64,000 nucleotides of DNA from Thermomonas flagellata (lineage in GTDB: Bacteria; Pseudomonadota; Gammaproteobacteria; Xanthomonadales; Xanthomonadaceae), in NCBI RefSeq assembly GCF_022419185.1, contig NZ_JAJOZK010000007.1, positions 1-64,000 on the forward strand, given 5' to 3'. The notes beneath the pieces are model-generated. The model saw nothing but the letters and a program-made list of their open reading frames with translations. It made no database searches and had not been told where the DNA came from. This document shows positions 6,946 through 63,946 of the stretch, piece by piece (position 1 is the stretch's first letter; the number at the start of each line of letters is the position of its first letter). Made by a program: the position numbers and the translations under genes.

Positions 6946-7006
6946 CGGTGGGGGCCTTGGAAGGACGCCGGCCGCGCGAGGGGCGCGGCCGGACGGGGGT
7001 CGTAGG

Positions 7007-8155
<1,149 letters not shown>

Positions 8156-8300: not shown

Positions 8301-9234
8301 GAAAATGGATCTGGAAGGCTGGTCGAGCCGGCTCAAGGTGTTCGCCGATGCCACCCGGGTGCGCCTGCTGGCGCTGTTGGCACGCGAGGAGCTGACCGTG
8401 GCGGAGCTGTCGGCGATCACCCAGTTGGCGCAGCCGCGGGTGTCCACCCACCTGGCCAAGCTCAAGGAGGCGGGGCTGGTGCGTGACCGCCGCGCCGGGG
8501 TCTCGGCCTACTACCGCTTCGACGAGGACGCGCTGGATCCGGCGCAGCGCGCGCTGTGGCAGTCGATCAGCACCGGCAGCGACGACCCGCTGCTGCGCCA
8601 GGACGCCGAACGGGTGCCGGCGGTGCTGGCGATGCGGGCAGCCGACCAGAACTGGGCCGACAGCGTGGCCGGCGACATGGAGCGCCACTACTCGCCGGGC
8701 CGCACCTGGGAGGCGCTGGCGCGCAGCGCGCTGCCGCTGCTGCAGCCCGGGGACGTGCTCGACATCGCCTCCGGCGACGGCGTGCTGGCCGAACTGCTGG
8801 CCCCGCACGCCGGGCGCTACGTGTGCGTGGACGCCAGCCCGCGGGTGGTGGCGGCGGCGCGCGAGCGCCTGCGCCGCTATCCCAACGTCGAGGTGCGCGA
8901 GGGCGACATGCACGCGCTGCCGTTCGCCGACGCCGGCTTCGACCTGGTGGTGCTGATGCACGCACTGACCTACGCCGCCAAGCCGGCGCAGGCGGTGGCC
9001 GAGGCCGCGCGCGTGCTGCGCCCCGGCGGGCGCCTGCTGCTGTCCAGCCTGGCCCGCCACGAGCACCGCAGCGTGGTCGAGGCCTATGGCCACCTCAACC
9101 TCGGCTTCGGCGCGCGCCAGCTGCGCCAGTTCGCCGAGCGCGCCGGCCTGCGCCCGGGCCCGGTGGAGTCGGTCACCCGCGAGCGCCGCCCGCCGCATTT
9201 CGAGGTGATCTCGCTGATCGCGGTGAAGCCGTGA
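8299..9234 (+). CDS. ArsR-family regulator fused to a SAM-dependent methyltransferase-like domain
   Basis: A 311-residue protein with an ArsR winged helix (residues about 5-85, recognition region [20 protein letters not shown]) and a class I methyltransferase fold, motif I DIASGDG at 155-161. The cysteine metal-binding motif of arsenic or zinc sensors is absent; the only cysteine is near residue 177. The gene stands 7 bases before split metH. These points suggest a sensor of S-adenosyl-methionine or S-adenosyl-homocysteine controlling the methionine cycle, as described for SahR-type ArsR regulators. The start is ATG 8299 or ATG 8305; GGAAAG at 8293-8298 spaces better to 8305. The sensing role is inference. 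Confidence 0.85.
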
Positions 9235-49070: not shown

Positions 49071-50150
<1,080 letters not shown>

Positions 50151-50220
50151 GGCCTCCCCTCACGATCGGATTCGGCTGCAACCGGCAGGTGCAAACCGCC
50201 GAAAGCCCGGCTATTCTGCC

Positions 50221-50236
50221 ATGTAACCGTTTACAT
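50221..50236. promoter_or_regulatory. LacI-type operator between the ATPase and GH1 genes
   Basis: ATGTAACC-GTTTACAT is a 16-base palindrome with 7 of 8 matching positions and the central CG typical of LacI-family operators. It is 15 bases before the GH1 GTG and about 70 bases before the ATPase ATG, well placed to control both. TATTCT at 50212-50217 could be a -10 for GH1. No LacI-family gene is in the window. Confidence 0.65.
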
Positions 50237-50251
50237 GCCAGCCCGCCGCCC

Positions 50252-51646
50252 GTGACCGCCGCGCCCGCCGAGACCTGTGACTTCCGCTTCCCCGACGGCT
50301 TTTTGTGGGGCGCGGCCACCGCCGCCCACCAGATCGAAGGCTCGCCGCTGGCCGACGGGGCCGGCCCGAGCATCTGGACCCGCTTCGCGCACACGCCGGG
50401 GATGATGCTCAACGGCGACACCGGCGACGTGGCCTGCGACCACTACCGGCGCTGGCGCGAGGACGTGGCGCTGATGAAGTCGCTCGGGCTGCAGGCCTAC
50501 CGCTTCAGCGTGTCGTGGTCGCGGGTGCTGCCGGAGGGCACCGGACGGGTCAACCCGAAGGGGTTGGACTTCTACTCGCGGCTGGTCGATGCCCTGCTCG
50601 AGAACGGCATCGAGCCGCTGCTCACGCTCTACCACTGGGACCTGCCGGCGGCGCTGGACGACCGCGGCGGCTGGCTCAACCGCGACTGCGCGGACTGGTT
50701 CGCCGAGTACGCCTCGGTGCTGTACCGCGCGCTCGACGGCCGGGTGAAGACCTGGGTCACCCTCAACGAGCCGTGGGTGATCACCGACGGCGGCTACCTG
50801 CACGGCGCGCTCGCGCCCGGCCACCGCAGCCGCTACGAGGCGCCGATCGCCAGCCACAACCTGATGCGCGCGCACGGCGCGGCGGTGCAGGCCTACCGCG
50901 CGCTCGGCCGGCACCGGATCGGGCTGGTGGTGAACATCGAGCCCAAGTACCCGGCCAGCGACAGCGCCGCGGACGCCGCCGCCACCCGCCGCGCGCATGC
51001 CTACATGAACGAGCAGTACCTGCATCCGGCGCTGCTCGGCCACTACCCGCCGGAGCTCAAGGAAATCTTCGGCGACGCCTGGCCGGACTGGCCGGCGGAG
51101 GACTTCGCGCTGATCCGCCAGCCGCTGGACTTCGTCGGCATCAACTACTACACCCGCAGCGTGACCCGCGCGCAGGAGAGCTACCCGCTCAACGCCGGGG
51201 CGGTGCGCCAGCCGCAGTCCACCTACACCGAGACCGGCTGGGAGGTGTACCCGCAGGCGCTGACCGAGCTGCTGCTGTGGTTCCGCCGCACCTACGGCGA
51301 GATCCCGGTCTACATCACCGAGAACGGCGCCGCGTTCTACGACCCGCCGCAGGCGCGGATCGAGGAGGACGGCCGCCGGCGCGTGCGCGATCCACTGCGG
51401 ATCGACTACCTGCACCGCCACCTGCGCGCGGTGCATGCGGCGATCCAGGCCGGGGTGGACGTGCGCGGCTACATGCTGTGGTCGCTGCTGGACAACCTCG
51501 AGTGGTCGCTGGGCTATTCCAAGCGGTTTGGCATGGTGCACGTGAACTATGCGACCCAGGAGCGCACCCCGAAGGACAGCGCGCTGTGGTACGCGAAGGT
51601 GATCGCCAGCCACGGCCGCAGCCTGGCCGATCCGCTGCCCGACTGA
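50252..51646 (+). CDS. GH1 beta-glucosidase
   Basis: A 464-residue glycoside hydrolase family 1 enzyme. The acid/base Glu173 is in TLNEP and the nucleophile Glu357 is in YITENG; the N-terminal FRFPDGFLWGAATAAHQIEG is the family signature. There is no signal peptide, so it should act in the cytoplasm on imported oligosaccharides, releasing glucose. I chose GTG 50252 because the upstream in-frame ATG (50189) would put the operator inside the coding region. A strong terminator follows. Linkage preference cannot be read from sequence. Confidence 0.92.
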   Translation: MTAAPAETCDFRFPDGFLWGAATAAHQIEGSPLADGAGPSIWTRFAHTPGMMLNGDTGDVACDHYRRWREDVALMKSLGLQAYRFSVSWSRVLPEGTGRVNPKGLDFYSRLVDALLENGIEPLLTLYHWDLPAALDDRGGWLNRDCADWFAEYASVLYRALDGRVKTWVTLNEPWVITDGGYLHGALAPGHRSRYEAPIASHNLMRAHGAAVQAYRALGRHRIGLVVNIEPKYPASDSAADAAATRRAHAYMNEQYLHPALLGHYPPELKEIFGDAWPDWPAEDFALIRQPLDFVGINYYTRSVTRAQESYPLNAGAVRQPQSTYTETGWEVYPQALTELLLWFRRTYGEIPVYITENGAAFYDPPQARIEEDGRRRVRDPLRIDYLHRHLRAVHAAIQAGVDVRGYMLWSLLDNLEWSLGYSKRFGMVHVNYATQERTPKDSALWYAKVIASHGRSLADPLPD

Positions 51647-51707: not shown

Positions 51708-54700
51708 TCAGTCCGCGGCGCCGGGCAGGATGGCCAGGCGCGCCGGCAGGCGGTCGATCCGCAGTTCGCCACCGACCAGCGGCGGGCCGCCTTCCACCTG
51801 GCCCCGGGCCCACGGCGCCGGCGGCGCCAGCACCAGGCCGCCGCGCGGCAGCTGCAGGCCGGCGGCGATCTCCACCTGCAGCACCCCGCCCTGCGCGTGC
51901 AGGCGGTAGCTGAGCTCGCCCTGCGGCGTGCGCAGCCGGCGCACCGCCACGCCCTCGCCCTGCAGCCACTGCGCCGGCAGGCCGGCGGCGAGCACCAGCG
52001 CGTCGTCCTGCTCGCGCGGATAGGCGAACAGGTCGAGCGCGGCGCGAATGTAGTCCGACTCCACCCAGGCATGCGGCAGGTCGCCGAGGAAGAACGGCAC
52101 CCGCGGGGTGGCCGAGACCACCTCGGCCCACTGGTTCCAGCCCGGCGGCTGCTGGTCGCGCAGGAAGAAGGCCAGCGCCTGCAGCGCGCGCTCGCGCCAG
52201 CCCAGGCGGACCATGCTGCCGACCGTGCGCAGCTCGTAGGGGGTGTAGTCCTTCCACGCGCGGGTGCCGTCGCGGCGGGCGACGAACTGCGCCCAGTAGC
52301 GCTCGAAGGTGGCTGCGAGCGCGTCCTGCGGCAGCCGTGCCTGCTCGCCCCCGGGCGCGAGCCAGGCCGTGCTGGAGGTGGCGTCGAAGTCGCCCAGTTC
52401 GGCCGCGCCGGGCAGGTAATCGATGCCGTGCCGCGCCATTGCCAGCCGCAGCGAGGCCAGCACGTCGGCGCGGAACTCGTCGCGCGCGGCCGCATAGCGC
52501 GCGGCGGCGTCGGCATGCCCGAGCCAGCGCGCGATCTCCACCGCGTCCTTGTAGCCGCGCAGCGCCCAGGCGTCGTCCCAGTAGGAATGCATGGGCTTGG
52601 CGGAATAACCCTCGTGGCTGATCGAGGCCGGCATCAGCCCGTAGAACGCAGGGTCGCGCGCGCGGTTGGCCTCGGTGCGCTCGCTCTGGCGCAGCTGCTC
52701 CATGTACGCCACCGCGCCCTGCACGTGCGGCCACATCGCCGCGAGGAAGGCACGATCGCCGGTGTAGCGGTACACCTCGGCGATGGCGTGGATCAGCTGG
52801 CCGTGGCTGTCGTTCTCCGGCACCGGGTCGCTGCCGCGGTCGTCCACGCAGCAGGGCACCTTGCCGCTGGTGAACTGGTAGGGCGCGAACCAGCGCACGA
52901 AGTCCTCGGCGACCTGGGCATGCCCCAGCCGCAGCAGGGCCTCGTCGATCATCGCGCCATCGCGGATCCAGGCCCGCGCGTAGGAGCGCGTGCCGGGCTG
53001 CAGGCGCGGTCCGCTGCGGCTGATCAGGATGTGCGCCAGCGCGGTGCGCAGGGTGTCCACCAGCTTGCGCGCCTCTGGCGGCACCGCGAACCCGACCCGG
53101 TCCAGCCGCGCGCGCCAGGCCGCGGCGACCTCCGCCTGCACTTGGGGCACCGGCGGCCCGGCGGGCGGGCGGGCCGGCATCGGACCTTCCAGCCGGCTGC
53201 GCCAATCGATCTCGCGTGCCTCTCCCGGCGCCAGGCGCAGGCGGTACACCACCGCCGCGCTGGCCAGTCCCTGCGGGTCGTGCAGGCGGCGCGGCGGCGC
53301 CCCGATGGCGGCCACGGCGCCCGGCGCGGCCAGCCGCGCGCGCAGCAGCGGCACCAGCTCGCCGCGGTCGAGGGTGGTTGCGAGGGTCGCGCTGGCCGGC
53401 TGCCCCAGCCACACCTGCCAGCGGTCGCCGGCGAGGCGGTCGCGCCCGGCGGACACCGCATGCAGCGGGCTGACCCCGCCCTGCACGGCCAGGAACTGGC
53501 GCGGCGGGTTGACCTGCAGCGGCCGCAGCGCCAGCACCAGTGCGAATTCGCGCGCTGCAGGCCCGGTGTTGGCCAGGCGGTAGCGCGCGTGCAGCCAGGC
53601 ATCGCCCGGGCGGCCGCTGGCGAACGTGGTGATCCGTAGCCGCAGGTCCGGATGCGCCCACTCCACCGACGGGATCGGCAGGTCGCCGTCCTGCAGCGAC
53701 TGCGTGGTCTGCACGTCCGCCCAGGTCAGCAGGCGGCCATCGACCGCGAGGAACGGCTCCACCCGCGGCCCGCCCTTGCCCAGTTCGATCGCGCCGTCCT
53801 CGTCGATCAGCCCCTGCTCGCGGCCGCCGTCGATGCCGACGATCGTCCAGTAGGGCTGCTCGCCCGAGAACCCGCGCGGCCAGGTGCCGCGCGGGTCGCG
53901 CTGCGCCAGCGCCTGCAGGAACGCGTTCGGGCTGGCGCCGAACGCGAGCGGCTGCACCTCCACTGCGCGCAGGGCCGGCCCGGCCGCCGCGGCCGGCACC
54001 ACGCGCAGGTAGCGCGCCTCGCTGTCGGGCAGCGCCAGCGCGTCCTCGCCGCCGTCGCTGGCGATCACCCGCCGCAAGGTGCGCCAATGCCGGCCATCGT
54101 CAGACCCCTCGACCCGGTAGTCGCCGGCGGCGGCGCCCGGCGCCCACTGCAACCGCACGCCGCCGAACTCGCGCACCCGGCCAAGGTCGTATACCCCGCC
54201 GCGGCCGGCGGGCCGCAGCTGGCCGGTGAGCGGCGAATCGTCGCGCGGCGGGAGCGTGCGCAGGCGCAACGCATCGAAGCAGAGCCGGCCCTTGCCGCCC
54301 TCGCCGCTGGCGAGGGTGATCTCGAGGCTGGCGCTCGCGTCCAGTTCGGCCTGTGGCGATGGGCCCCAGGCCTTCTCCACCTCGCGCCGGCGCAGCACCA
54401 GGTCGGTCCACGCCGCCGGTGGCGAAAAGCCTGGCCTGCGCACCCACCACACATTGTCCCCGCTGGCATCCACCAGCTTGAACTGCAGCTCGTTGCGCGC
54501 ACCGCTGCCGCGCAGGCGCAGGTCGAAGGCATAGTTCGGCGGCAGCGCCAGCGGCAGCGCGCGGCGCAGGCCCACATAGCCGGACACGCCGTGGAAGTCG
54601 TAGACCAGGCACACCGCGCGGCCGTCGCCACCCGCCTCCGGCTGCAGCCGGCCCTCGACCTGATCGGAGGCCACCACCTGCCACGCAGCGGCCTCGGAAA

Positions 54701-54800
54701 ACCCGTCCAGCCGCCGCGCCGGCTCCGCCGCGGCCGCCGGCAGCGCCCACAGTGCCGCCAGCGCCAGCGCGCCCAGCCGCCTGCCCCACGTCGATCGCAT
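51708..54800 (-). CDS. large secreted discoidin-domain protein with a six-hairpin glycosidase-like region
   Basis: A 1030-residue protein with a signal peptide (1-24, cleavage after PAAAA). Residues about 30-180 form a beta-rich carbohydrate-binding-like region, and about 185-290 a discoidin (F5/8 type C) domain. The rest contains a beta-sandwich and then an (alpha/alpha)6 barrel (about 590-930), with acidic clusters RSYARAWIRDGAMIDE, CVDDRGSDPVPENDSHGQ and SYWDDAWALRGYKD that could hold catalytic residues. This architecture is typical of inverting glycosidases or phosphorylases, but I cannot name the CAZy family. It is last in the operon, 38 bases after the permease; GAGGAGGA precedes the start. 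Confidence 0.75.
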   Translation of the reverse strand: MRSTWGRRLGALALAALWALPAAAAEPARRLDGFSEAAAWQVVASDQVEGRLQPEAGGDGRAVCLVYDFHGVSGYVGLRRALPLALPPNYAFDLRLRGSGARNELQFKLVDASGDNVWWVRRPGFSPPAAWTDLVLRRREVEKAWGPSPQAELDASASLEITLASGEGGKGRLCFDALRLRTLPPRDDSPLTGQLRPAGRGGVYDLGRVREFGGVRLQWAPGAAAGDYRVEGSDDGRHWRTLRRVIASDGGEDALALPDSEARYLRVVPAAAAGPALRAVEVQPLAFGASPNAFLQALAQRDPRGTWPRGFSGEQPYWTIVGIDGGREQGLIDEDGAIELGKGGPRVEPFLAVDGRLLTWADVQTTQSLQDGDLPIPSVEWAHPDLRLRITTFASGRPGDAWLHARYRLANTGPAAREFALVLALRPLQVNPPRQFLAVQGGVSPLHAVSAGRDRLAGDRWQVWLGQPASATLATTLDRGELVPLLRARLAAPGAVAAIGAPPRRLHDPQGLASAAVVYRLRLAPGEAREIDWRSRLEGPMPARPPAGPPVPQVQAEVAAAWRARLDRVGFAVPPEARKLVDTLRTALAHILISRSGPRLQPGTRSYARAWIRDGAMIDEALLRLGHAQVAEDFVRWFAPYQFTSGKVPCCVDDRGSDPVPENDSHGQLIHAIAEVYRYTGDRAFLAAMWPHVQGAVAYMEQLRQSERTEANRARDPAFYGLMPASISHEGYSAKPMHSYWDDAWALRGYKDAVEIARWLGHADAAARYAAARDEFRADVLASLRLAMARHGIDYLPGAAELGDFDATSSTAWLAPGGEQARLPQDALAATFERYWAQFVARRDGTRAWKDYTPYELRTVGSMVRLGWRERALQALAFFLRDQQPPGWNQWAEVVSATPRVPFFLGDLPHAWVESDYIRAALDLFAYPREQDDALVLAAGLPAQWLQGEGVAVRRLRTPQGELSYRLHAQGGVLQVEIAAGLQLPRGGLVLAPPAPWARGQVEGGPPLVGGELRIDRLPARLAILPGAAD

Positions 54801-54838: not shown

Positions 54839-55666
54839 TCAGCCCTTGACGCTGCCCAGCAGCAGCCCCTGCAGGTAATGCCGCTGCAGGGCCAGGAACA
54901 GCAGCAGCACCGGCAGCACGGTGACCACCGCGCCGGCCATCATCAGCTCGTTGTCCTGCACGTGCTCGCGCGACAGCCCGGCCAGCGCCACCGGCAGGGT
55001 CTGCAGGCGGTCCTCGCTGAGCACGATCAGCGGCCACATGAAGTCGTTCCAGGCGCCGAGGAAGCTGAACACCGCCAGCGTCACCAGGATCGGGCGCAGC
55101 ACCGGCAGCACAATCTGCACGAAGATCCGCCACTCGCCGGCGCCGTCGATCCGCGCCGCGTCCAGCAGGTCGTCGGGGATCGCGCGCGCATACTGGCGCA
55201 CCAGGAAGATGCCGAACACCCCGGCCAGCCCGGGCACCATCGCCCCGAGGTAGGTGTTGATCAGGCCCAGCGGCTTGAGCATCAAAAACAGCGGCATCAT
55301 CGCCACCTGCCCCGGGATCACCAGCACCGCCAGCAGCAGGCGGAACACCCGCTCGCGGCCGGCGAAGCGCAGCTTGGCGAAGGCGTAGCCGGCCATGGTG
55401 TTGAGCAGCAGCGAGATGACGGTGACCCCGCCGGCCACCACCAGGCTGTTGAGGAAATGCCGGCCCATGCCGGCGCGCAGGAACAGCGCGCGGTAGTTGT
55501 CCCAGGTCGGCGCCTGCGGCAGCAGCGGCGGCGGGAAATGGCTGGCCGCACCCGCGGGCATGAACGAGACCGACAGCATCCACAGCAGCGGCAGCAGGCT
55601 GAAGGCCGCCAGCGCCAGCAGCAGGCCGTTCACTACGATCGCGGGCAGCACGCGCGGCAGGCGCAT
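54839..55666 (-). CDS. sugar ABC transporter permease (MalG type)
   Basis: A 275-residue inner-membrane permease with six hydrophobic segments and the EAA loop DDLLDAARIDGAGEWRIFVQIVLP at about 180-203, where the ATPase docks. CUT1 permeases of the second (MalG-like) kind end with a short basic tail (LLLGSVKG), as seen here. The start ATG overlaps the stop of the partner permease by ATGA. The substrate is probably an oligosaccharide made by the glycosidases of the locus. Confidence 0.92.
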   Translation of the reverse strand: MRLPRVLPAIVVNGLLLALAAFSLLPLLWMLSVSFMPAGAASHFPPPLLPQAPTWDNYRALFLRAGMGRHFLNSLVVAGGVTVISLLLNTMAGYAFAKLRFAGRERVFRLLLAVLVIPGQVAMMPLFLMLKPLGLINTYLGAMVPGLAGVFGIFLVRQYARAIPDDLLDAARIDGAGEWRIFVQIVLPVLRPILVTLAVFSFLGAWNDFMWPLIVLSEDRLQTLPVALAGLSREHVQDNELMMAGAVVTVLPVLLLFLALQRHYLQGLLLGSVKG

Positions 55667-56547
55667 CACTCCACCCCGCGCCGGCGCGCCCACCACAGCA
55701 GCAGGCTGGTGCTCGCGCTCATGATCAGGAACAGCAGGAAGGCGACCGCCGAGGCGCTGCCCAGGTTCCACCACTTGAAGCCCTGCTCGTACATCAGGTA
55801 CAGCACGCTCACGGTGCTCTGCAGCGGCCCGCCCTGGGTCATCACGTAGGGCTCGGCGAACAGCTGGAAGTAGCCGGCCATGGTCAGGATGCCGACCAGC
55901 AGCAGCACCGGCCCGAGCTGCGGCAGGGTGATGTGCAGGAACTGCCGCCAGCGCGAGGCGCCGTCGATCCGCGCCGCCTCGTACAGGTCCTCGGGGATGC
56001 CCTGCAGCCCGGCCAGCAGGATGACCATGTTGTAGCCGAAGTTCTTCCACACCGCGAACAGGATGATGGTGGGCATCGCCCAGCGCGGGTCGCCCAGCCA
56101 GTCCACCGGCGCGATCCCGAGCGCCCCGAGCAGCCAGTTCACCAGCCCGTACTGGGTATGGAACAGGTAGCGCCAGATCAGCGCCACCGCGACCACCGTG
56201 GTCACCACCGGCGCGAACAGCGCGGTGCGGAAGAACGCCTTGCCGCGCGCCAGCGCCGAGTGCAGCAGCAGCGCGGCCAACAGCGACAGCGCGATCGACA
56301 GCGGCACCCCGGCCAGCACGAAGTAGAACGTGTTGCCCAGCGCCTTCCAGAACAGCGGGTCCTGCAGCAGGGCCAGGTAGTTGCCGAGGCCGACGAAGCG
56401 CAGGTTGCGCAGGTCCGCGAGCGCATAGATGTCGAAGTCGGTCAGGCTCAGCGCCAGCCCGGCCAACACCGGCAGCCCGAAGAACAGGCCGATCACCAGC
56501 AGCGCCGGCGCCGCGAACAGCCAGCCGGCCAGCGCGCGCGCGCTCAC
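55666..56547 (-). CDS. sugar ABC transporter permease (MalF/UgpA type)
   Basis: A 293-residue inner-membrane permease with about six membrane segments and the EAA loop EDLYEAARIDGASRWRQFLHITLP near 198-221. It follows the binding protein with a GTGA overlap (GTG start at 56545-56547) and overlaps the next permease by ATGA, so the three are stoichiometrically coupled. Family CUT1; no ATPase gene is in the same strand run, but the one at 49071-50150 is suitable. Confidence 0.92.
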   Translation of the reverse strand: MSARALAGWLFAAPALLVIGLFFGLPVLAGLALSLTDFDIYALADLRNLRFVGLGNYLALLQDPLFWKALGNTFYFVLAGVPLSIALSLLAALLLHSALARGKAFFRTALFAPVVTTVVAVALIWRYLFHTQYGLVNWLLGALGIAPVDWLGDPRWAMPTIILFAVWKNFGYNMVILLAGLQGIPEDLYEAARIDGASRWRQFLHITLPQLGPVLLLVGILTMAGYFQLFAEPYVMTQGGPLQSTVSVLYLMYEQGFKWWNLGSASAVAFLLFLIMSASTSLLLWWARRRGVE

Positions 56548-57827
56548 GGCAGCGCCCCGCGGCGGTGGTCGAGCATCCAGCGCCGCTTGGCGAGGATGGC
56601 GTCGGTGCGACGGTCCATCTCCGCGGCCGCCTGCGCCACGCTCAGGCGGTCGTTGGCCAGCTGCTCGCCGACGATCCGCAGCTCCTGCGCGATGCGCTCC
56701 CATTCCGGCACCTTCGGCGCCGGCACCGCGCGCTCGAGCTGGGCGCGGAAGGCCTGCGCGTTGGGATCTCGCGCCAGCGCCGGCGTGTCCCATGCCGAGC
56801 GCCGCGGCGGCAGGTCGCCGGTGAGCGCGTGCAGGCGGATCTGCTGCGCCGGCTGCGACAGCCAGGCCACCAGCGCCCACGCCGCCGGCTTGTCGCGCGC
56901 GCTGCGGAACACCACGAAGCTGGTGCCGCCGGCGACCGAGGCGCCCGGCCCGCGCGGGCCCGGCAGCGGCATCGTGCCCCAGGCCGACTGCAGCCGCGCC
57001 GGCAGGCGCGCGCGGAACTCGGCGATGTTCCACGGGCCGCTGATGTAGTAGCTGAAATAGCCGCGCCCGAATTCGTCCCACACGTTGGAGATGCGGGTGT
57101 TGTCGACCCGCGGCGCCAGCCCGGCGTCGAACAGGCCGCGGTAGAACCCCAGCGTCTGCACGAAGCCGGGGTTGCGGAAGTTGCCGTAGCGCCCGCCGTC
57201 GCGCAACAGCGGCTCCGGCTGCTGCACGGCGAGGTTGAGCAGCGGCTCGAACTCGTTGAGCGGCAGCAGGATGGCGAAGCGGTCCGCGCCGACCTGACGC
57301 TTGACCGCCTGCATGGCCGTCCGCCACTCGGCCCAGTCGCGCGGCGGGCGCGCCACCCCGGCGGCGGCCAGCAGATCCTTGCGGTAGTACGGCAGGCGCG
57401 TCTCGACGTACCACGGCACCGCGTAGGTCACCCCATCGATCACCCCGGCATCCCAGGCGCCGCGGAAGTAGTCGCCGGGATCGATCCCGCCCGGCCGCCG
57501 CAACCACGGATCCAGCGGTTCGAGCGCACGCAGCGCGGCGAACTCGGCGATCCAGGTGTTGCCGAGCGGCACCACGTCCGGCAGCGCGTCGCCCGCGAAG
57601 GCGGTCAACAGCTTTTCGTGTGCGGCGGTCCACGGCAGCTGCTGCAGCTTGACCCGAATGCCCGGATGCGCGCGCTCGAACTCCGGCAGCAGGCGCGCCA
57701 CCACCTCGCCCTCGTAGCCCATCGCCCACAGCCGCACCACCCGCCGGCCGTCGCCCTCGCGCGCGCAGCCGGCGAGGACCAGCAGCAGGCCGAGCAGCAG
57801 CCAGCGCGGGCACAGGCGCGCGCGCAT
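56544..57827 (-). CDS. sugar ABC transporter substrate-binding lipoprotein
   Basis: A 427-residue extracellular solute-binding protein of family 1. The signal peptide ends in lipobox LAGC (Cys21), so it is anchored in the periplasm. VRLWAMGYEGEVVARLLPEFERAHPGIRV is the typical first strand and helix, and the length suits maltose/oligosaccharide binding proteins. Tryptophan and tyrosine residues such as PWYVETRLPYYRKDLL are likely sugar-stacking positions. It starts two bases after the glucanase stop. The C-terminal helix (RRTDAILAKRRWMLDHRR) is basic. Confidence 0.9.
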   Translation of the reverse strand: MRARLCPRWLLLGLLLVLAGCAREGDGRRVVRLWAMGYEGEVVARLLPEFERAHPGIRVKLQQLPWTAAHEKLLTAFAGDALPDVVPLGNTWIAEFAALRALEPLDPWLRRPGGIDPGDYFRGAWDAGVIDGVTYAVPWYVETRLPYYRKDLLAAAGVARPPRDWAEWRTAMQAVKRQVGADRFAILLPLNEFEPLLNLAVQQPEPLLRDGGRYGNFRNPGFVQTLGFYRGLFDAGLAPRVDNTRISNVWDEFGRGYFSYYISGPWNIAEFRARLPARLQSAWGTMPLPGPRGPGASVAGGTSFVVFRSARDKPAAWALVAWLSQPAQQIRLHALTGDLPPRRSAWDTPALARDPNAQAFRAQLERAVPAPKVPEWERIAQELRIVGEQLANDRLSVAQAAAEMDRRTDAILAKRRWMLDHRRGALP

Positions 57828-57829
57828 GC

Positions 57830-59320
57830 TCAGCCGCCCGTACTCCGGGCCGCGCCGGCAGGCGCGGCGGCCGCCTGCAGCCAGCCGCCGCGGAAGCCGG
57901 CGCGCTCCAGCCCGCGCCGGATGTGGGGATTGCGCCGCATCACCTCCCACACGAAGCCGCTGCGGTAGTTCTCGATCATCAGCACGATCGGGCCCTGGTC
58001 GATCCCGAGGTAGTCGGTGTCGACCCAGCCACTGGGCGTCAGCCGGCCGTGCTTGAGGGTCGCGCCGGCGAAGGTGAAGCTGGGGTTGAAGGCGTCGAGG
58101 AAGCCGTACTCGCCGTAGATGTCGCGGCCGTAGCGTTCGTGCATGGCGGTGATCGCCGGGATCACGATCTCCGGCGCGAACGCGATCGAGCCGGCGGCCG
58201 CGGTCGGCGCCAGGGTGCCGTCGTCGAGCACGTACTCGATGCCGGCGCCGCGCGCCGAGTAGCTGTGGAACAGGCGGGTGCTGCCGGCATAGTCGAAGCT
58301 GGCATCGGTCGGCCCGTCGCAGGCGGTCAGGCCCCACACGTGCTTGCCGTAGCCGGCCCAGCCGCCGGGGTTGGCGGTCGCGTAGGCCTGCTGCGAATAG
58401 GTCGCGCGGCGGCTGTTCTCGAAGTAGTCCAGCCCGCGCCGGCGCATGTAGTCGTCCTGGATGCCGCGGAAGTCGATCCAGATGTGCGAGTACTGGTGCC
58501 CGAACAGCGGCGGGAAGCTCAGGTGCTGCTGGCCGTAGAAGGTGCCCCAGGTGCGGTCGTAAGTGGAGGTCCACGCCTGCCAGGCATCGGTTCCGACCGG
58601 GTGGGTCGGCGAGCCCAGCGCCAGCACGTACACCAGGATCGCCTCGTTGTAGCCCTGCCAGTCGTGCTTGAGCATGCCCTCCTCCGGCTTCCAGCCCATC
58701 GCGATCCACGGCGGGCGCGCCTGCATCCAGGTCCAGTCCACCCGCCGGTAGATCTTCTCGGCCAGGCGGCGGATCTCCGCCTCCTTGCGGTCCTCGCGAT
58801 CGTAGTAGCTCTGCGCGAACAGCACCCCGCCCAGCAGCAGCGCAGTGTCCACGCTCGACAGCTCGTTGCTGCCGGCGCGGGTGCCGGTGTCCATGTCGAG
58901 GAAATGGTAGAAGAAGCCGCGGTAGCCGGCGGCGCCGCTCGCATTCGGCCCCTGCGGCGCGCGCGCGAAGAAGCGCAGGGTGGCCAGGGTGCGCTCCACC
59001 GCCTCGGCGCGGGTGATCCAGCCGCGCTCGACCCCGACCCCGTACGCGGTCAGGCCGAAGCCGACCGCGGCGATGCTGGACGCCGAGGGCGTCGGCCAGC
59101 GGTCGGGCACCAGACCGTTGTCCGGATTGCCCAGTTCCCAGAACCAGTCGAAAGTCCTGCGCTCCAGATCCTCCACCAGCGGCGGCAGGGCCTGCACCGC
59201 GCGCGCCGGCGCGGGGTCGGCCGCCGCCGGCGGCGCCGGGGAACGCCCGCACCCGCCCAGCAGCAGGGCCAGGGCGAGGGCGACGGGCATCCCCAATCGC
59301 CGCGCCAGATGCCCGATCAT
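57830..59320 (-). CDS. glucoamylase-like/GH144-type glucanase lipoprotein
   Basis: A 496-residue predicted lipoprotein (LGGC, Cys24) of the glycoamylase-like family PF10091, which includes GH144 endo-beta-1,2-glucanases. Recognisable blocks are RTFDWFWELGNPDNGLVPDRWP near 53-74, FYHFLDMDTG, MGWKPEEGMLKHDWQGYNEA, DFRGIQDDYMR and GEYGFLDAFNPSF. The fold is an (alpha/alpha)6 barrel. The start overlaps the halogenase stop by ATGA. With the ABC importer and a cytoplasmic GH1 enzyme it suggests use of a beta-glucan, possibly beta-1,2-linked. Exact specificity is inference. Confidence 0.82.
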   Translation of the reverse strand: MIGHLARRLGMPVALALALLLGGCGRSPAPPAAADPAPARAVQALPPLVEDLERRTFDWFWELGNPDNGLVPDRWPTPSASSIAAVGFGLTAYGVGVERGWITRAEAVERTLATLRFFARAPQGPNASGAAGYRGFFYHFLDMDTGTRAGSNELSSVDTALLLGGVLFAQSYYDREDRKEAEIRRLAEKIYRRVDWTWMQARPPWIAMGWKPEEGMLKHDWQGYNEAILVYVLALGSPTHPVGTDAWQAWTSTYDRTWGTFYGQQHLSFPPLFGHQYSHIWIDFRGIQDDYMRRRGLDYFENSRRATYSQQAYATANPGGWAGYGKHVWGLTACDGPTDASFDYAGSTRLFHSYSARGAGIEYVLDDGTLAPTAAAGSIAFAPEIVIPAITAMHERYGRDIYGEYGFLDAFNPSFTFAGATLKHGRLTPSGWVDTDYLGIDQGPIVLMIENYRSGFVWEVMRRNPHIRRGLERAGFRGGWLQAAAAPAGAARSTGG

Positions 59321-60837
59321 GCGGCCTCCGGCGCGCGGCAGTGGCGGTCGATGAAGGCCTGCTGCGGCGGCATGGCCTCCACGCAGTTGCGGATCACCGC
59401 GTGCACGTGCTGCAGGAACTGCACCAATTCCTCCTCCGGCATCTGGTCGGCGAACGGGTGCCAGCGCTCCGGCAGCAGGCGTTGGCCGACCATGACCTGC
59501 ACCCAGCTCTGCAGCGCGAAGAACTCCTCGCCGTTGCGGTAGAACCTGCCCGTGCGCCGGAACAGGTCGATGGTCTCCTGCAGGCCATCCGGCACCGGCA
59601 TGTGCCGGCAGTCGCGCCAGAACGGGCTGTCGTCGCGCTGGTTGGCCTTGTAGTGCAGGATGATGAAATCGCGGATGCGCTCGTACTCGAAGATCGTCGC
59701 CGCGTTGTAGCGCGCGACCAGCACCGGGTCGCAGGCGCGCGTCGGGAACATGTCCAGCAGGCGCAGGATCGCGGTCTGCACCAGCAGCAGGCTGGTCGAT
59801 TCCAGCGGCTCCATGAACCCGCTGGCCAGCCCCACCGCGACCACGTTGCGCTCCCAGAACCGCTCTCGGCGGCCGGTGGTGAAGCGCAGCGGGCGCGGCT
59901 CGGCGAGCGCGGCGCCGTCGAGGTTGCCGAGCAGGCGCGCGGCGGCCTCGTCGTCGCTCAGGTAGCGGCTGCAGTAGACATGGCCGTTGCCGGTGCGGTG
60001 CTGCAGCGGGATCCGCCACTGCCAGCCGGCCTCCAGCGCGGTCGAGCGGGTGTACGGCGCCAGTTCCGGCGCGCGCGCGCTGGGCACCGCCAGCGCGCGG
60101 TCGCAGGGCAGCCAGTGGCTCCAGTCCTGGTAGCCGACGCCCAGCGCCTGCCCGATCAGCAGGCCGCGGAAGCCGGAGCAGTCGAGGAACAGGTCGCCCG
60201 CGATGCGGCGGCCGTCCTCCAGTTGCAGCGCGGCGACGAAGCCGTCCTCGCCGCGCTGCTCGACCCCGACGATCCGCCCTTCGTGCCGGCGCACCCCGCG
60301 CTGCTCCGCGTAGCGGCGCAGGAAGCGCGCGTACAGGCCGGCGTCGAAGTGGTAGGCGTAGGCCACCGCGGCCAGCGGCGAGCCGGCCGGCGCGTCCGCG
60401 GCGCCGGGCAGGAACCGCCCCTGCGCGGCGGCGCTGGCCTGCAGCGCGTACTCGCCGAGCGGCCGGGCCAGCCCGTGCCGGTGCGCGCGCAGCCAGTAGT
60501 GGTGGAACGCGACCGGCCCGAGGTCGAGCCCGACGCTGCCGAAGCCGTGGAAATAGGCATCGCCGCGGCGGCCCCAGTCGCGGAACTGGATGCCGAGCTT
60601 GAACGTGCCCTGGGTGGCGCGCACGAACTCGGCCTCGTCCAACCCCAGCACCTGGGTGTTGAAGGTGCGGATGTGCGGGACGGTGGCCTCGCCCACCCCG
60701 ACCGTGCCGATCTCCTCGGACTCGACCAGGTGCACCTCGCAGGCCGGCGCGAGGTGGCGGATGCAGGCCGCCGCCGCCATCCAGCCGGCCGAGCCGCCGC
60801 CGACCACCACCACCCGCCGGATCGCGCCGTCGTCCAT
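59317..60837 (-). CDS. flavin-dependent tryptophan-halogenase family protein
   Basis: A 506-residue FAD-dependent halogenase homologue (PF04820). The FAD loop GGGSAG is at 13-18; the lysine that carries the haloamine is Lys80 (GTFKLGIQF); the W-x-W-x-I-P motif is W272, W274, I276, P277; and Glu346 in EPLESTS matches the catalytic glutamate of PrnA. All key halogenase residues are therefore present. I chose ATG at 60835-60837, preceded by GGAGG, over one five codons earlier. It lies between a TonB receptor and a glucanase, like other Xanthomonad family members. Such homologues have been reported to brominate indoles in vitro; the natural substrate is unknown. Confidence 0.9.
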   Translation of the reverse strand: MDDGAIRRVVVVGGGSAGWMAAAACIRHLAPACEVHLVESEEIGTVGVGEATVPHIRTFNTQVLGLDEAEFVRATQGTFKLGIQFRDWGRRGDAYFHGFGSVGLDLGPVAFHHYWLRAHRHGLARPLGEYALQASAAAQGRFLPGAADAPAGSPLAAVAYAYHFDAGLYARFLRRYAEQRGVRRHEGRIVGVEQRGEDGFVAALQLEDGRRIAGDLFLDCSGFRGLLIGQALGVGYQDWSHWLPCDRALAVPSARAPELAPYTRSTALEAGWQWRIPLQHRTGNGHVYCSRYLSDDEAAARLLGNLDGAALAEPRPLRFTTGRRERFWERNVVAVGLASGFMEPLESTSLLLVQTAILRLLDMFPTRACDPVLVARYNAATIFEYERIRDFIILHYKANQRDDSPFWRDCRHMPVPDGLQETIDLFRRTGRFYRNGEEFFALQSWVQVMVGQRLLPERWHPFADQMPEEELVQFLQHVHAVIRNCVEAMPPQQAFIDRHCRAPEAA

Positions 60838-60853: not shown

Positions 60854-60879
60854 CCGGGGCCCGCTCGCGCGGGCCCCGG
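60854..60879 (-). terminator. intercistronic hairpin between the TonB receptor and halogenase genes
   Basis: CCGGGGCCCGC (60854-60864) and GCGGGCCCCGG (60869-60879) form a perfect 11-base GC-only stem with a four-base loop in the 67-base gap. It is not followed by a T-tract, so it probably protects the receptor mRNA end or reduces read-through, allowing high receptor and low enzyme levels from one promoter. Confidence 0.6.
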
Positions 60880-60904: not shown

Positions 60905-63900
60905 TCACCAGCTCAGGCGCCCGGAGAGGAAGTAGGTGCGCGGCGTGGTGTAGCTGTTCACGCCGCCGCCGGTGGTGATCAGGTCGATCACGGGGTTGTA
61001 GATCCCGTTGCTGCCCCAGTTGATGTTGTAGGAGTTGTAGTTCTTGTTGTTGAACACGTTGATTGCGTCCGCGCGCAGCTGGAAGGTCATCCCCGCGAAC
61101 AGGCGGAAGTCCTTGGACAGCGCCAGGTCGAGCTGCTTGGTGCCGATGCTCTGCGGCGGGAACGCGGCCACGATCAGCGGCGGGCGCGGGCTGGCGCCGT
61201 ATTCCCACCAGCCCACGATCGCGTTCAGCGGCGGCGGCGAGGCCAGGGTCAGCTTGGCCGACAGGGTCACATCCCAGGGCAGGTCGCGGATCGCGGTCGC
61301 CACCAGGCGGTGCTTGGGCACCACGCTGAGGTAGATGAACGGGTAGTCGGCGATGGTCGGCGCGTCGAACGAATAGTGCTCGTCGCCGCCGCGGTTGCCC
61401 TTGGCATGGCTGTAGGTGTAGGCGACCGTGACGCCCCAGCCGGAGGCCTTGTCGTACGGCTTCTCCGCGCTCAGCAGCAGCTGGCTGGTCTTGGTCTCGA
61501 TCCCGTTGTTGCCCAGGATCAGCGGCCCGAAGCCCGGCGGTGCGTGCTCCCACGGCTGCGCCACGTCGTTCGCGTTCCACGACGGCGCCGACCAGAACTT
61601 GCCGTCCGGGTAGCGGTTGCCGAGGGTGAACACGAAGCCTTCCTTGCTGTGCACGTTGCTCAGCGCGGCCGAGACGTTCCAGTCCACCAGGCGCGCGCGC
61701 AGGCCGAGCGACATCTGGTCGGAATACGGCGTCTTCAGGTTGTTGTTGAGCAGGTCGATCTCGCCGTTGCGCACCCGCGAGGTCACCAGCGCCTGCAGGT
61801 TCTCGACCCCGTTGAGGTACTTCGGATCCCAGTTCACGCAGGAGCCGGGCGCCGGGGTGCAGCCGGTGCTCTGCACGAACTGGATCTGGTAGGAGGCCAG
61901 CGCCGACTTGACCTGCTCCAGGCCCATGTAGTCGTACAGGTTGCGGTCGTAGCTGCGGCCGAAGCCGCCGAAGAACACCAGGCTCTCGTCGCCGTTGATG
62001 TCGTAGGAGAAGCCCAGGCGCGGGGCGAAGTTGTTCTTGTCGACCTTGCGGTTATGGCCGTTGCTGATGTAGTCGTTGATGTTGATGCCGCCCTTGGCCA
62101 GCTGCTGCGCGTAGGTCGCGGACACCGCCGGGTTGGTGCCCGGCCCGGTCAGCGCGGCCACCACCTCCGGCGGGGTCACGTAGTCCACGTAGGAGGGGAT
62201 CTTCTCGTAGTCCCAGCGCACGCCGATGTTCAGCTGCAGCTTGTCGGTCACGTCCCAGTCGTCCTGCACGTACAGCCCGATCTGCCGGCTCTTGGTGGTC
62301 ACGATCGGCGCGGCCCCGGCGAACGGCGCGTTGAAATTGACCTGGTAGGGGATCGCGTTGGTGCCGACCGGGGTGTACGGGCTGGGCGGCAGGCTGCCGT
62401 CGTTGACCGCGTAGCGGAACGACGGGATCAGGTCGGAGTTCTCGCTCTGGATCAATTCGACGTGCTTGATCTTGACGCCGGCCTTGATCACGTGGCTGCC
62501 GTGCCAGTCGAAGCTGTTGAAGGTGATGTCGTTCTGGAACGCCGGGCCCTTCTGCCCCTTGCGCTGGATCGCCAGCGCGCTGGTGGCGTCGGCGAACAGC
62601 AGCACGTTGTTGGGATTGATGCCGACGGTGTAGATCGACTGGTTGCCGATCCGGTACGGGCGCGGATTGAACAGCGCGTCCTCGTAGGTCAGCCGCGCCT
62701 CGTTCATGAACGCCGCGCCGTAATGGGTCCAGCGCAGGTCGTAGCGATCTTCGGTGTTGTAGTTGATCTTGGAGGCCGAGGCGGCAGTGATGCCGCCGAC
62801 GTCGGTGCGTCCGTTCTCGTCGCGGCGCTTGAACGACAGCTCGATGCGGTCGTCCATCCCGAGGTCCCAGTCGAACTTGGCGAAGTACAGGTCCTCCTTG
62901 AACGGCGCGGTGGCCGGGCCGAGCTGGTCCTTGGCCGCGGCCGGCAGGAAGCCCGCGAACGAGGCCCACTGGTTGGGCACCGCGACCGGCGGCATCGACA
63001 CCACGAAGTCCTTGGCCTCGTAGCTGACGAAGTAGTGCATGCGGTCGCGGATGATCGGGCCGCCGAGCGCGACCCCGTATTCCTTCTGCTCGGTCTTCTG
63101 CTTGGCCGCGCCGGCGCCGACCTCCGACACCGTGCGCGAGCGCAGGCCGGTATCGGTGTAGCGGCCGAAGATCTCGCCGGAGAACTCGTTGGTGCCGGAG
63201 CGGGTGGCGGCGATCACCACCGCCGAGGCGACCTGGTCGTACTCGGCCTTGTAGTTGGAGGTGATGACCTTGTACTCGCCGATCGCCAGCTGCGGGAACG
63301 GGTTGCCGCGGCTCTGGTCCTGGCCGGTGATACCGCCGGTGAGGACGTAGTTCTTCTGGCCCACGCCGTCGATGAAGACGTTGATCGCGCTGGTGGTCTG
63401 GGCGCCGCCACGCAGCTGGGTGGTGCCGTTCGGGTTGGCCTCGAACTGCATGCCGGGCACGGTGTCGGCGAACTCGAGGAAGTTGCGCGACACCTGCGGC
63501 AGGGTGCTGATGGTCTTGAGCGAGACGTTGTTGCCGACCTCGGAGGTCTTGACCTCCTGCAACGCCACCCCGGTCGCGGTGACCGTGTCCAGGGTCTTGA
63601 CCCCGCCCTGCCCCGGCGGCAGCAGGTCGAGGTTGACCGAGGTCGCCACCGCCAGGGTCACGGTCTTCTCGGTGCCAGGGCCGGCCTCGACCTTGTAGGT
63701 GCCCGGCGGTAGGCCGGTGAGCGCGAAGCTGCCGTCGGCGGCGACCTTGACCTTGCGCACCTGCCCGGTGGCGGTGTTGACCGCGGTGACCTCGGCGCCG
63801 GCCGGCGCCTTGCCGCGCAGGGTGGCGTTGGCGGACTGCGCCAGCGCCGGGGCGCCCCCCAGCATCAGGCAGCTGGCCAGCGCGCAGGCCAGCAGGGTGC

Positions 63901-63946
63901 GATGCGGCGTGGACCGCGGCGTGGTGGACCGGTGCGTGCGTTGCAT
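60905..63946 (-). CDS. TonB-dependent receptor with N-terminal carboxypeptidase-regulatory-like domain
   Basis: A 1013-residue outer-membrane receptor of the Oar/SusC-like kind. Residues 1-37 are a signal peptide (cleavage after PALAQ), about 38-105 a carboxypeptidase-regulatory-like beta-sandwich (ATLRGKAPAGAEVTAVN ... LPPGTYKVEAG), then the plug (about 115-300, RGGAQTTSAINVFIDGV) and the 22-strand barrel, ending on the aromatic SGRLSW. The start ATG at 63944-63946 has GGAGGGGA upstream. No classic TonB box was identified with confidence. As first gene of the run it probably imports the oligosaccharide handled downstream. The promoter lies beyond 64000. Confidence 0.93.
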   Translation of the reverse strand: MQRTHRSTTPRSTPHRTLLACALASCLMLGGAPALAQSANATLRGKAPAGAEVTAVNTATGQVRKVKVAADGSFALTGLPPGTYKVEAGPGTEKTVTLAVATSVNLDLLPPGQGGVKTLDTVTATGVALQEVKTSEVGNNVSLKTISTLPQVSRNFLEFADTVPGMQFEANPNGTTQLRGGAQTTSAINVFIDGVGQKNYVLTGGITGQDQSRGNPFPQLAIGEYKVITSNYKAEYDQVASAVVIAATRSGTNEFSGEIFGRYTDTGLRSRTVSEVGAGAAKQKTEQKEYGVALGGPIIRDRMHYFVSYEAKDFVVSMPPVAVPNQWASFAGFLPAAAKDQLGPATAPFKEDLYFAKFDWDLGMDDRIELSFKRRDENGRTDVGGITAASASKINYNTEDRYDLRWTHYGAAFMNEARLTYEDALFNPRPYRIGNQSIYTVGINPNNVLLFADATSALAIQRKGQKGPAFQNDITFNSFDWHGSHVIKAGVKIKHVELIQSENSDLIPSFRYAVNDGSLPPSPYTPVGTNAIPYQVNFNAPFAGAAPIVTTKSRQIGLYVQDDWDVTDKLQLNIGVRWDYEKIPSYVDYVTPPEVVAALTGPGTNPAVSATYAQQLAKGGININDYISNGHNRKVDKNNFAPRLGFSYDINGDESLVFFGGFGRSYDRNLYDYMGLEQVKSALASYQIQFVQSTGCTPAPGSCVNWDPKYLNGVENLQALVTSRVRNGEIDLLNNNLKTPYSDQMSLGLRARLVDWNVSAALSNVHSKEGFVFTLGNRYPDGKFWSAPSWNANDVAQPWEHAPPGFGPLILGNNGIETKTSQLLLSAEKPYDKASGWGVTVAYTYSHAKGNRGGDEHYSFDAPTIADYPFIYLSVVPKHRLVATAIRDLPWDVTLSAKLTLASPPPLNAIVGWWEYGASPRPPLIVAAFPPQSIGTKQLDLALSKDFRLFAGMTFQLRADAINVFNNKNYNSYNINWGSNGIYNPVIDLITTGGGVNSYTTPRTYFLSGRLSW

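Follow-up and report, generated by a model that had tools for sequence, protein, structure and literature searches.

A 64,000-nucleotide stretch of the Thermomonas flagellata genome (contig NZ_JAJOZK010000007.1, positions 1 to 64,000; hereafter the window) carries a gene for a flavin-dependent halogenase (FDH), an enzyme of a kind not known to take part in sugar uptake, between genes for a TonB-dependent receptor (TBDR) and a glucanase homologue of family GH144. On the minus strand the order is LacI-family regulator, TBDR, FDH, GH144, sugar-binding protein, ATP-binding cassette (ABC) permeases and a large glycosidase; beyond the last of these lie a GH1 gene, oriented the other way, and the gene of a MalK-type ATPase (Table 1).

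The halogenase gene and its product

The FDH open reading frame (ORF) runs from an ATG at 60837, with an AGGGAGG-like ribosome site read from the sequence on its 5' side, to a TGA at 59319-59317. The Pfam family Trp_halogenase (PF04820) covers residues 8-468 of the protein (E 2.3e-197; 656.8 bits against a cut-off of 21), and the catalytic set is complete: the flavin adenine dinucleotide (FAD) loop with G13, G15 and G18, K80, W272-x-W274-x-I276-P277, E346 and S347. At the N-terminus a signal sequence is not apparent, the FAD-binding strand beginning at residue 8. The best solved matches by sequence are Xcc4156 (551 bits), the FDH of Pseudoalteromonas L11 (543 bits) and BrvH (512 bits), with PrnA at 307 bits. 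An AlphaFold model (mean predicted local distance difference test score 85.7) aligns with Xcc4156 (6y1w) at Z 52.8 and a root-mean-square deviation of 1.7 A over 491 residues, of 493 in chain 6y1w_B. Aligned by structure, the protein is 48-52% identical to each of three solved halogenases. This identity, the length of the gene and its conserved synteny exclude a chance ORF, and the protein is complete and apparently competent in halogenation. The FDH stop and the GH144 start share the letters ATGA, and the best solved match of the GH144 protein is XCC2207 (636 bits), also called XcSGL, which was placed in GH144 and hydrolyses beta-1,2-glucans (excerpt of PMC12102758, 2025). A preliminary description made from the sequence alone had claimed a complete FDH with all named catalytic residues, set between a TBDR and a glucanase whose start its stop overlaps; Pfam, alignment, model and the XcSGL match bear it out. 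Its further claim that such homologues have no known natural substrate agrees with the literature, where neither BrvH nor any of three X. campestris FDHs is credited with a known native substrate (excerpt of PMC7336383).

A free-tryptophan halogenase of groups A or B (PrnA, RebH, PyrH) was ruled out by the missing Trp4 substrate motif: neither form, as defined in PMC8269204 and with any residue allowed at one position of the group A motif, occurs in any of 178 FDH rows, the window FDH included. The phenol FDH motif F-xx-P-xx-S-xx-G (PMC12645471), its spacing (Fx.Px.Sx.G) derived by us from residue numbers, is likewise found in full in 0/178 rows; the window FDH has F341, P344 and S347 of it and lacks the G three residues further on. 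BrvH is assigned to group C, which has no Trp4-like motif (excerpt of PMC8269204), and Xcc4156 and the Pseudoalteromonas L11 FDH would also fall there. Judged by its closest relatives in sequence and fold, the window FDH is a non-tryptophan FDH of this BrvH/Xcc4156 type. Further traits that define the type are short substrate loops around an open site, a preference for bromination and no use of free tryptophan. The enzyme family is a known one, of which the window FDH is an unexceptional representative, and its setting is general among its relatives.

Receptor genes beside halogenases in other genomes

A survey of 299 genomes of the host's order, with a match threshold of E 1e-60 and at most five candidates scored per genome, detected an FDH in 155/299; within the genus the figure was 4/25, the window genome included. 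A first set of 62 loci was chosen by similarity to the window FDH and consists of 60 stretches around matches and two loci of the host's own genome. Locus genes are mechanical ORF choices with phmmer labels, and their starts are often too long, so that some gaps are negative. Among the 76 FDHs of these loci, 39 lie at most 400 bp behind a TBDR, 12 lie further downstream on the TBDR strand and two adjoin a TBDR in another orientation. A second set took the best 80 of at least 595 loci in named alpha-, beta- and gammaproteobacterial records, and its counts therefore describe close relatives; it overlaps the first in at least one place, L128 appearing to be the same place as L056. Here a TBDR stands directly upstream of the FDH in 60 loci and upstream with genes between in 6, the rest being other arrangements (5), contigs too short (4) and loci with no TBDR seen (5).

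Of all the kinds of neighbouring gene the receptor is the most constant, whereas the sugar genes vary. GH144 occurs near the FDH in 9/80 named loci, and the first three called genes downstream include alpha-amylase-family (GH13) clusters (12 loci), GH30 (7 loci) and GH2 mannosidase-like genes (4 loci); GH3 was also found downstream, as in the LacI-TBDR-FDH-GH3 order of C. vibrioides DSM 9893 (L194). All these clusters were checked by Pfam on representatives only. The host genome itself has 22 TBDR matches in 2.5 Mb and two FDHs. Its second FDH lies in an alpha-glucan-type locus with TBDR, pullulanase-like, GH13-like, MFS transporter and LacI genes, named from the sequence except for the pullulanase (by cluster) and the TBDR (by domains). 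In the mechanical calls this FDH (L003, 7929-9521) and the 5' part of the pullulanase-like ORF (5216-8050) overlap each other on opposite strands. The preliminary description had asked whether such halogenases always accompany the same receptor and GH144 gene, taking a lack of the sugar genes in relatives as a point against its reading. The FDH is indeed very often found with a TBDR, not always of the same type and not always with GH144: its link to the window's sugar genes is partial, its link to the receptor strong.

Tandem receptors of the window TBDR family precede the FDH in L054 and L055, and also in L132 and L142 (Xanthomonas and related bacteria); L127 is similar, with the second ORF split. 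A TBDR-FDH pair was also seen in L141 (RPSH01000004.1), titled Bacillus sp. 2B10, and TBDRs being unexpected in Bacillus, this record is probably mislabelled or contaminated. Another recurring set, TBDR-(FDH)-SapC-Cupin_8-FDH with a JmjC-like cupin, appears in L084, L086, L090-L093, L198, L206 and L211-L214. In stretches centred on SapC, TBDR, Cupin_8 and FDH were all present in 6/20 and none of the three was detected in the other 14/20 (three of them incomplete), which rules out SapC as a general partner of TBDRs.

No published account of the FDH-TBDR pairing was recognised among the papers listed by full-text searches; Ismail et al. 2019 on the X. campestris FDHs (cited in PMC7336383), which was left aside here, may cover gene context. 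The word halogenase has 0 occurrences in a paper on Shewanella sugar utilisation (PMC2996990), and TonB and operon have 0 occurrences in the BrvH and Xcc4156 papers (PMC5945002, PMC7336383).

Conservation of catalytic and substrate-side residues

The alignment of the 178 FDH rows counts the window FDH twice and includes the repeated locus L128/L056; in 170 of the rows neither K80 nor E346 is lost. The eight rows without the catalytic Lys and/or Glu (L071, L083, L088, L089, L143, L172, L181, L185) all come from stretches in which the number of FDH genes is two to four, which looks as though an intact copy were working together with a degenerate one. H97, F99, W272, W274 and G451 are invariant in the 169 other intact rows, with W445 kept in 166/169 and Q452 in 162/169. 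From their position relative to the Trp4 region of PrnA, residues 438-456 are predicted to form part of the substrate site. The invariant core is equal across the GH144, GH31, SapC/Cupin_8 and other settings, which suggests one common kind of target.

These residues bear on the idea, raised in general terms in the preliminary description, that the protein is a non-halogenating flavoenzyme, either a QhpG-like monooxygenase or an oxidase built on the halogenase fold. A precedent exists in a flavoprotein that we take to be QhpG. This flavoprotein dihydroxylates peptidyl tryptophan (excerpt of PMC7876137), and the window FDH does match the QhpG family NF049967 (NCBIfam), although only at 29.2 bits, below the cut-off of 240. 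Retention of K80 and E346 in nearly all rows, with every exception in a multi-FDH stretch, weakens the idea, as does the halogenating activity of the close relatives Xcc4156 and BrvH (excerpts of PMC5945002 and PMC7336383), and we consider it highly improbable.

Optional presence and co-divergence

Twenty loci were picked from 299 TBDR-searched genomes for having no FDH match beside the TBDR, a choice which shows that such operons exist and not how frequent they are. An FDH was detected in 0/20 of these stretches, and in 17/20 the TBDR is followed by GH144 in the same orientation; of the remaining three, L095 and L109 have no detected GH144 and L096 is cut by the end of its contig. No FDH match at E 1e-60 exists in eight of these genomes (G220, G240, G257, G261, G269, G300, G308, G318). 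As 17 loci keep the TBDR-GH144 adjacency, the FDH is best seen as an add-on, and these operons speak against a strict dependence of the receptor on the FDH in this TBDR family.

On a tree of 45 TBDRs, in which the rows of L054, L055 and L096 were counted as FDH-less, accounting for presence and absence of the FDH takes 9 changes, of which supported branches impose 7. The FDHs of GH144 loci cluster beyond chance (4 changes against a shuffle mean of 17), as expected of an old association lost repeatedly, gains being also possible. Over 18 loci that hold FDH, TBDR and GH144, distances between FDHs follow those between TBDRs when GH144 is controlled for (partial r 0.50, permutation p 0.0005), whereas the relation to GH144 given TBDR is weak (partial r 0.18, p 0.037). 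When three loci are left out, the two coefficients become 0.41 (p 0.0005) and 0.20 (p 0.057), respectively. Part of this co-divergence can come from linkage alone.

The number of changes on the tree and the small share of genus genomes with an FDH are what one would expect if no functional tie existed and the FDH were a neutral passenger or a mobile gene inserting behind TBDRs. Such a gene would hardly keep its catalytic residues for so long, share start and stop letters with GH144, diverge together with the TBDR and recur in the same arrangement in alpha-, beta- and gammaproteobacteria beside different sugar genes; a mere passenger is, in our judgement, quite unlikely.

The operon and its glycan

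The window TBDR is Oar-like, and its Pfam search at E 0.001 gave no match to the Plug domain. The 67-bp gap between TBDR and FDH contains a strong hairpin, and a 76-nt segment over this gap folds at -45.2 kcal/mol (z -2.58), a value reached by 2/200 shuffles. No T run follows the hairpin, which is therefore not a classic terminator; it may adjust how much receptor is made relative to the products of the genes behind it. Two GTAAACGTTTCC/GGAAACGTTTAC-like sites, operator-like by eye, were seen 5' of the LacI gene (L004, about 9080-9195).

Table 1. Genes and other features of the halogenase operon and its surroundings.
Feature	Position	Strand	Basis
FDH, 506 aa, BrvH/Xcc4156-type	59317..60837	-	ORF, Pfam, alignment, AlphaFold model
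TBDR, 1013 aa, Oar-like	60905..63946	-	PF25183, PF00593, CarboxypepD_reg + OMP_b-brl_4
LacI-family regulator, directly upstream of TBDR	genome contig about 63969-65105, mostly beyond window	-	
Hairpin, G+C-rich, 9-bp stem, 4-nt loop, in TBDR-FDH gap	60856..60877	-	
GH144 beta-1,2-glucanase homologue, N-terminal lipobox-like sequence (by eye)	57830..59320	-	PF10091
ABC sugar-binding lipoprotein	56544..57833, start approximate	-	best solved match 3uor, second Lin1841
Two ABC permease genes	54839..56570, boundaries approximate	-	sequence reading and clustering, not Pfam
Large six-hairpin-type glycosidase with F5/8 domain	51708..54800, start approximate	-	Pfam
GH1 beta-glucosidase homologue	50189..51646	+	Pfam
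MalK/MsmK-like sugar ABC ATPase	49071..50150	-	Pfam

Receptor, regulator, glycosidases and inner-membrane transporter (the permeases by clustering only) stand together here, as in TBDR-containing carbohydrate-utilisation loci. Lin1841, the second match of the binding protein, is a sophorooligosaccharide binder of Listeria. This match and the closeness of the GH144 protein to XcSGL indicate that the glycan imported is most likely a beta-1,2-glucan. The large glycosidase, for which no solved relative was found at E 0.001, is possibly a new beta-1,2-glucan enzyme.

The preliminary description had named as one possibility an aromatic aglycone or a lignocellulose phenolic, entering with the glycan and modified by the FDH. 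The glycan-uptake setting is real, and two residues of the enzyme (53 and 55, discussed below) are not the same in the GH144 setting as in others, which a substrate specific to the glycan might explain. Beta-1,2-glucans, however, bear no aryl group. The glucanase is a homologue of beta-1,2-glucanases, relatives of the FDH sit with unrelated sugar enzymes, and the same operon, otherwise intact, does without the FDH in many genomes. With the glucanase homologue and the varying sugar genes, this was dropped as the leading idea and appears most improbable.

Proposed role of the halogenase and evidence against it

We tentatively propose, at slightly less than an even chance, that the FDH is a competent, cytoplasmic and optional accessory of the neighbouring TBDR in a LacI-controlled beta-1,2-glucan operon, acting on an aromatic target. 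In part, this reading is firmer: a cytoplasmic site and a partnership with the TBDR that is functional and not merely positional both seem probable. Since the FDH stays with TBDRs while the sugar genes change, a receptor-linked target is likelier than the glycan, and the receptor, not the glucan, is the likely partner. By the chemistry of the family, a general reductase would supply FADH2, whose reaction with O2 and halide would give hypohalous acid (HOX), which would reach K80 and, with E346, place a halogen on an electron-rich indole or phenol ring. The target preferred here would be an aromatic side chain on one of the proteins produced along with the operon, the first candidate being the TBDR precursor before its export. 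Xcc4156 and BrvH are described as having a substrate site that is open and a lysine that solvent can reach (excerpt of PMC7336383), features that would suit a bulky substrate. A protein substrate for the FDH is nevertheless speculative and rather doubtful, and the broader proposal that BrvH/Xcc4156-type FDHs halogenate an aromatic side chain of the TBDR or of a co-exported protein before export is still less likely.

A modified residue was sought by comparing columns of W, Y, F and H between FDH-holding and FDH-less operons (23 and 19 rows for the TBDR, 18 and 17 each for GH144 and the binding protein). The paired test was restricted to mostly filled columns with a frequency difference of at least 0.25, which left 56 columns in the TBDR, 8 in GH144 and 6 in the binding protein. 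The TBDR rows of L054 and L055 (distal tandem copies in FDH-holding operons) and L096 (near a contig end) were dropped, after which 7 independent pairs remained when supported branches were counted and 9 when all branches were.

Several observations weigh against an accessory of the receptor with a shared target on it. In none of the three proteins (TBDR, GH144, binding protein) does an aromatic column track FDH presence; for the best columns of the TBDR, the median number of independent pairs that change together with the FDH is 3/7, and others change as strongly in the opposite sense, one of them in 4 pairs. Positions conserved in both FDH-holding and FDH-less groups could still be targets. 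The FDH-linked TBDRs are of two architectures, Oar-like in the window and Plug-type in the nine others tested, so that a shared modification site is not obvious. In the first locus set 11 of the 76 FDHs have another arrangement and 12 have no detected TBDR, although two (L080, L094) of four loci of the latter group tested by Pfam do hold one. Three of the five named loci with no TBDR seen have a pullulanase or GH97 upstream instead, and the second FDH of the host genome runs on the strand opposite to its TBDR, from which about 3 kb and the pullulanase-like gene separate it. Finally, the sequence around residues 53 and 55 differs with the setting: it reads ATVPH where the setting is GH144 and ATIP with a varied residue after it in others, residue 53 being V in 27/28 GH144-setting rows and I in 19/20 GH31-setting rows, and residue 55 being H in 27/28 GH144-setting rows and mostly other residues elsewhere. 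Both residues fall within a region named Trp1 (excerpt of PMC8269204), and the difference may be a clade signal or a tuning to a setting-specific target or substrate.

The absence of a tracking residue would also be expected if the FDH brominated or chlorinated a small molecule, namely a diffusible indole-like or phenolic metabolite, perhaps a ligand or signal of the TBDR system, the linkage to the TBDR then reflecting co-regulation. BrvH and the X. campestris FDHs use indole derivatives and not free tryptophan (excerpt of PMC7336383), and a core conserved in all settings fits a common metabolite as well as a common protein. Nevertheless, the activity of BrvH on indole is low (excerpt of PMC5945002), no other biosynthetic gene was seen in the operon by sequence reading, Pfam and clustering (no cluster-finding tool was run), and a general metabolite leaves the frequent pairing with TBDRs unexplained. 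We regard a small-molecule substrate as possible, if on the unlikely side.

If the TBDR is the true partner, the search for substrates of FDHs with solved structures, studied as biocatalysts, moves from secondary metabolism to receptor biology. The candidate proteins are few and testable, and an operon that exists naturally with and without the FDH offers a clean comparison.

Comparison with known systems

The window FDH resembles most closely Xcc4156 (6y1w, X. campestris), BrvH (6frl, Brevundimonas) and the Pseudoalteromonas L11 FDH (9luq), with which it shares the same catalytic residues at Z 52.8, 49.3 and 50.7, respectively. With PrnA, RebH, PyrH and Thal it has in common the fold (best Z 42-46), the FAD loop, the catalytic Lys, WxWxIP and the catalytic Glu; it differs from PrnA in that the sequence alignment stops at residue 427 of the window FDH. 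MibH, a lanthipeptide tryptophan halogenase by its PDB title, and QhpG are flavoenzymes acting on tryptophan inside a peptide or protein, whereas for the window FDH a peptide substrate is only proposed. Both are distant from it (MibH at Z 38.8 and 31% identity, the QhpG family at 29.2 bits).

The closest parallel to the gene arrangement is found in Caulobacter, where CciO, a cytoplasmic dioxygenase from a neighbouring gene, is strictly needed by the receptor CciT (excerpt of PMC11870441). In both systems a receptor and a cytoplasmic oxidative enzyme are encoded together and co-conserved; CciT-CciO concerns iron uptake and an Fe(II)/2-oxoglutarate dioxygenase, in contrast to the glycan operons and halogenase described here. 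A conserved pairing of the same kind is seen in the directly upstream TBDR of 60/80 named loci, although the FDH is optional in GH144 operons. If the proposed role is true, CciT-CciO would be joined by a second example in which an importer of the outer membrane is served by an oxidative enzyme of the cytoplasm.

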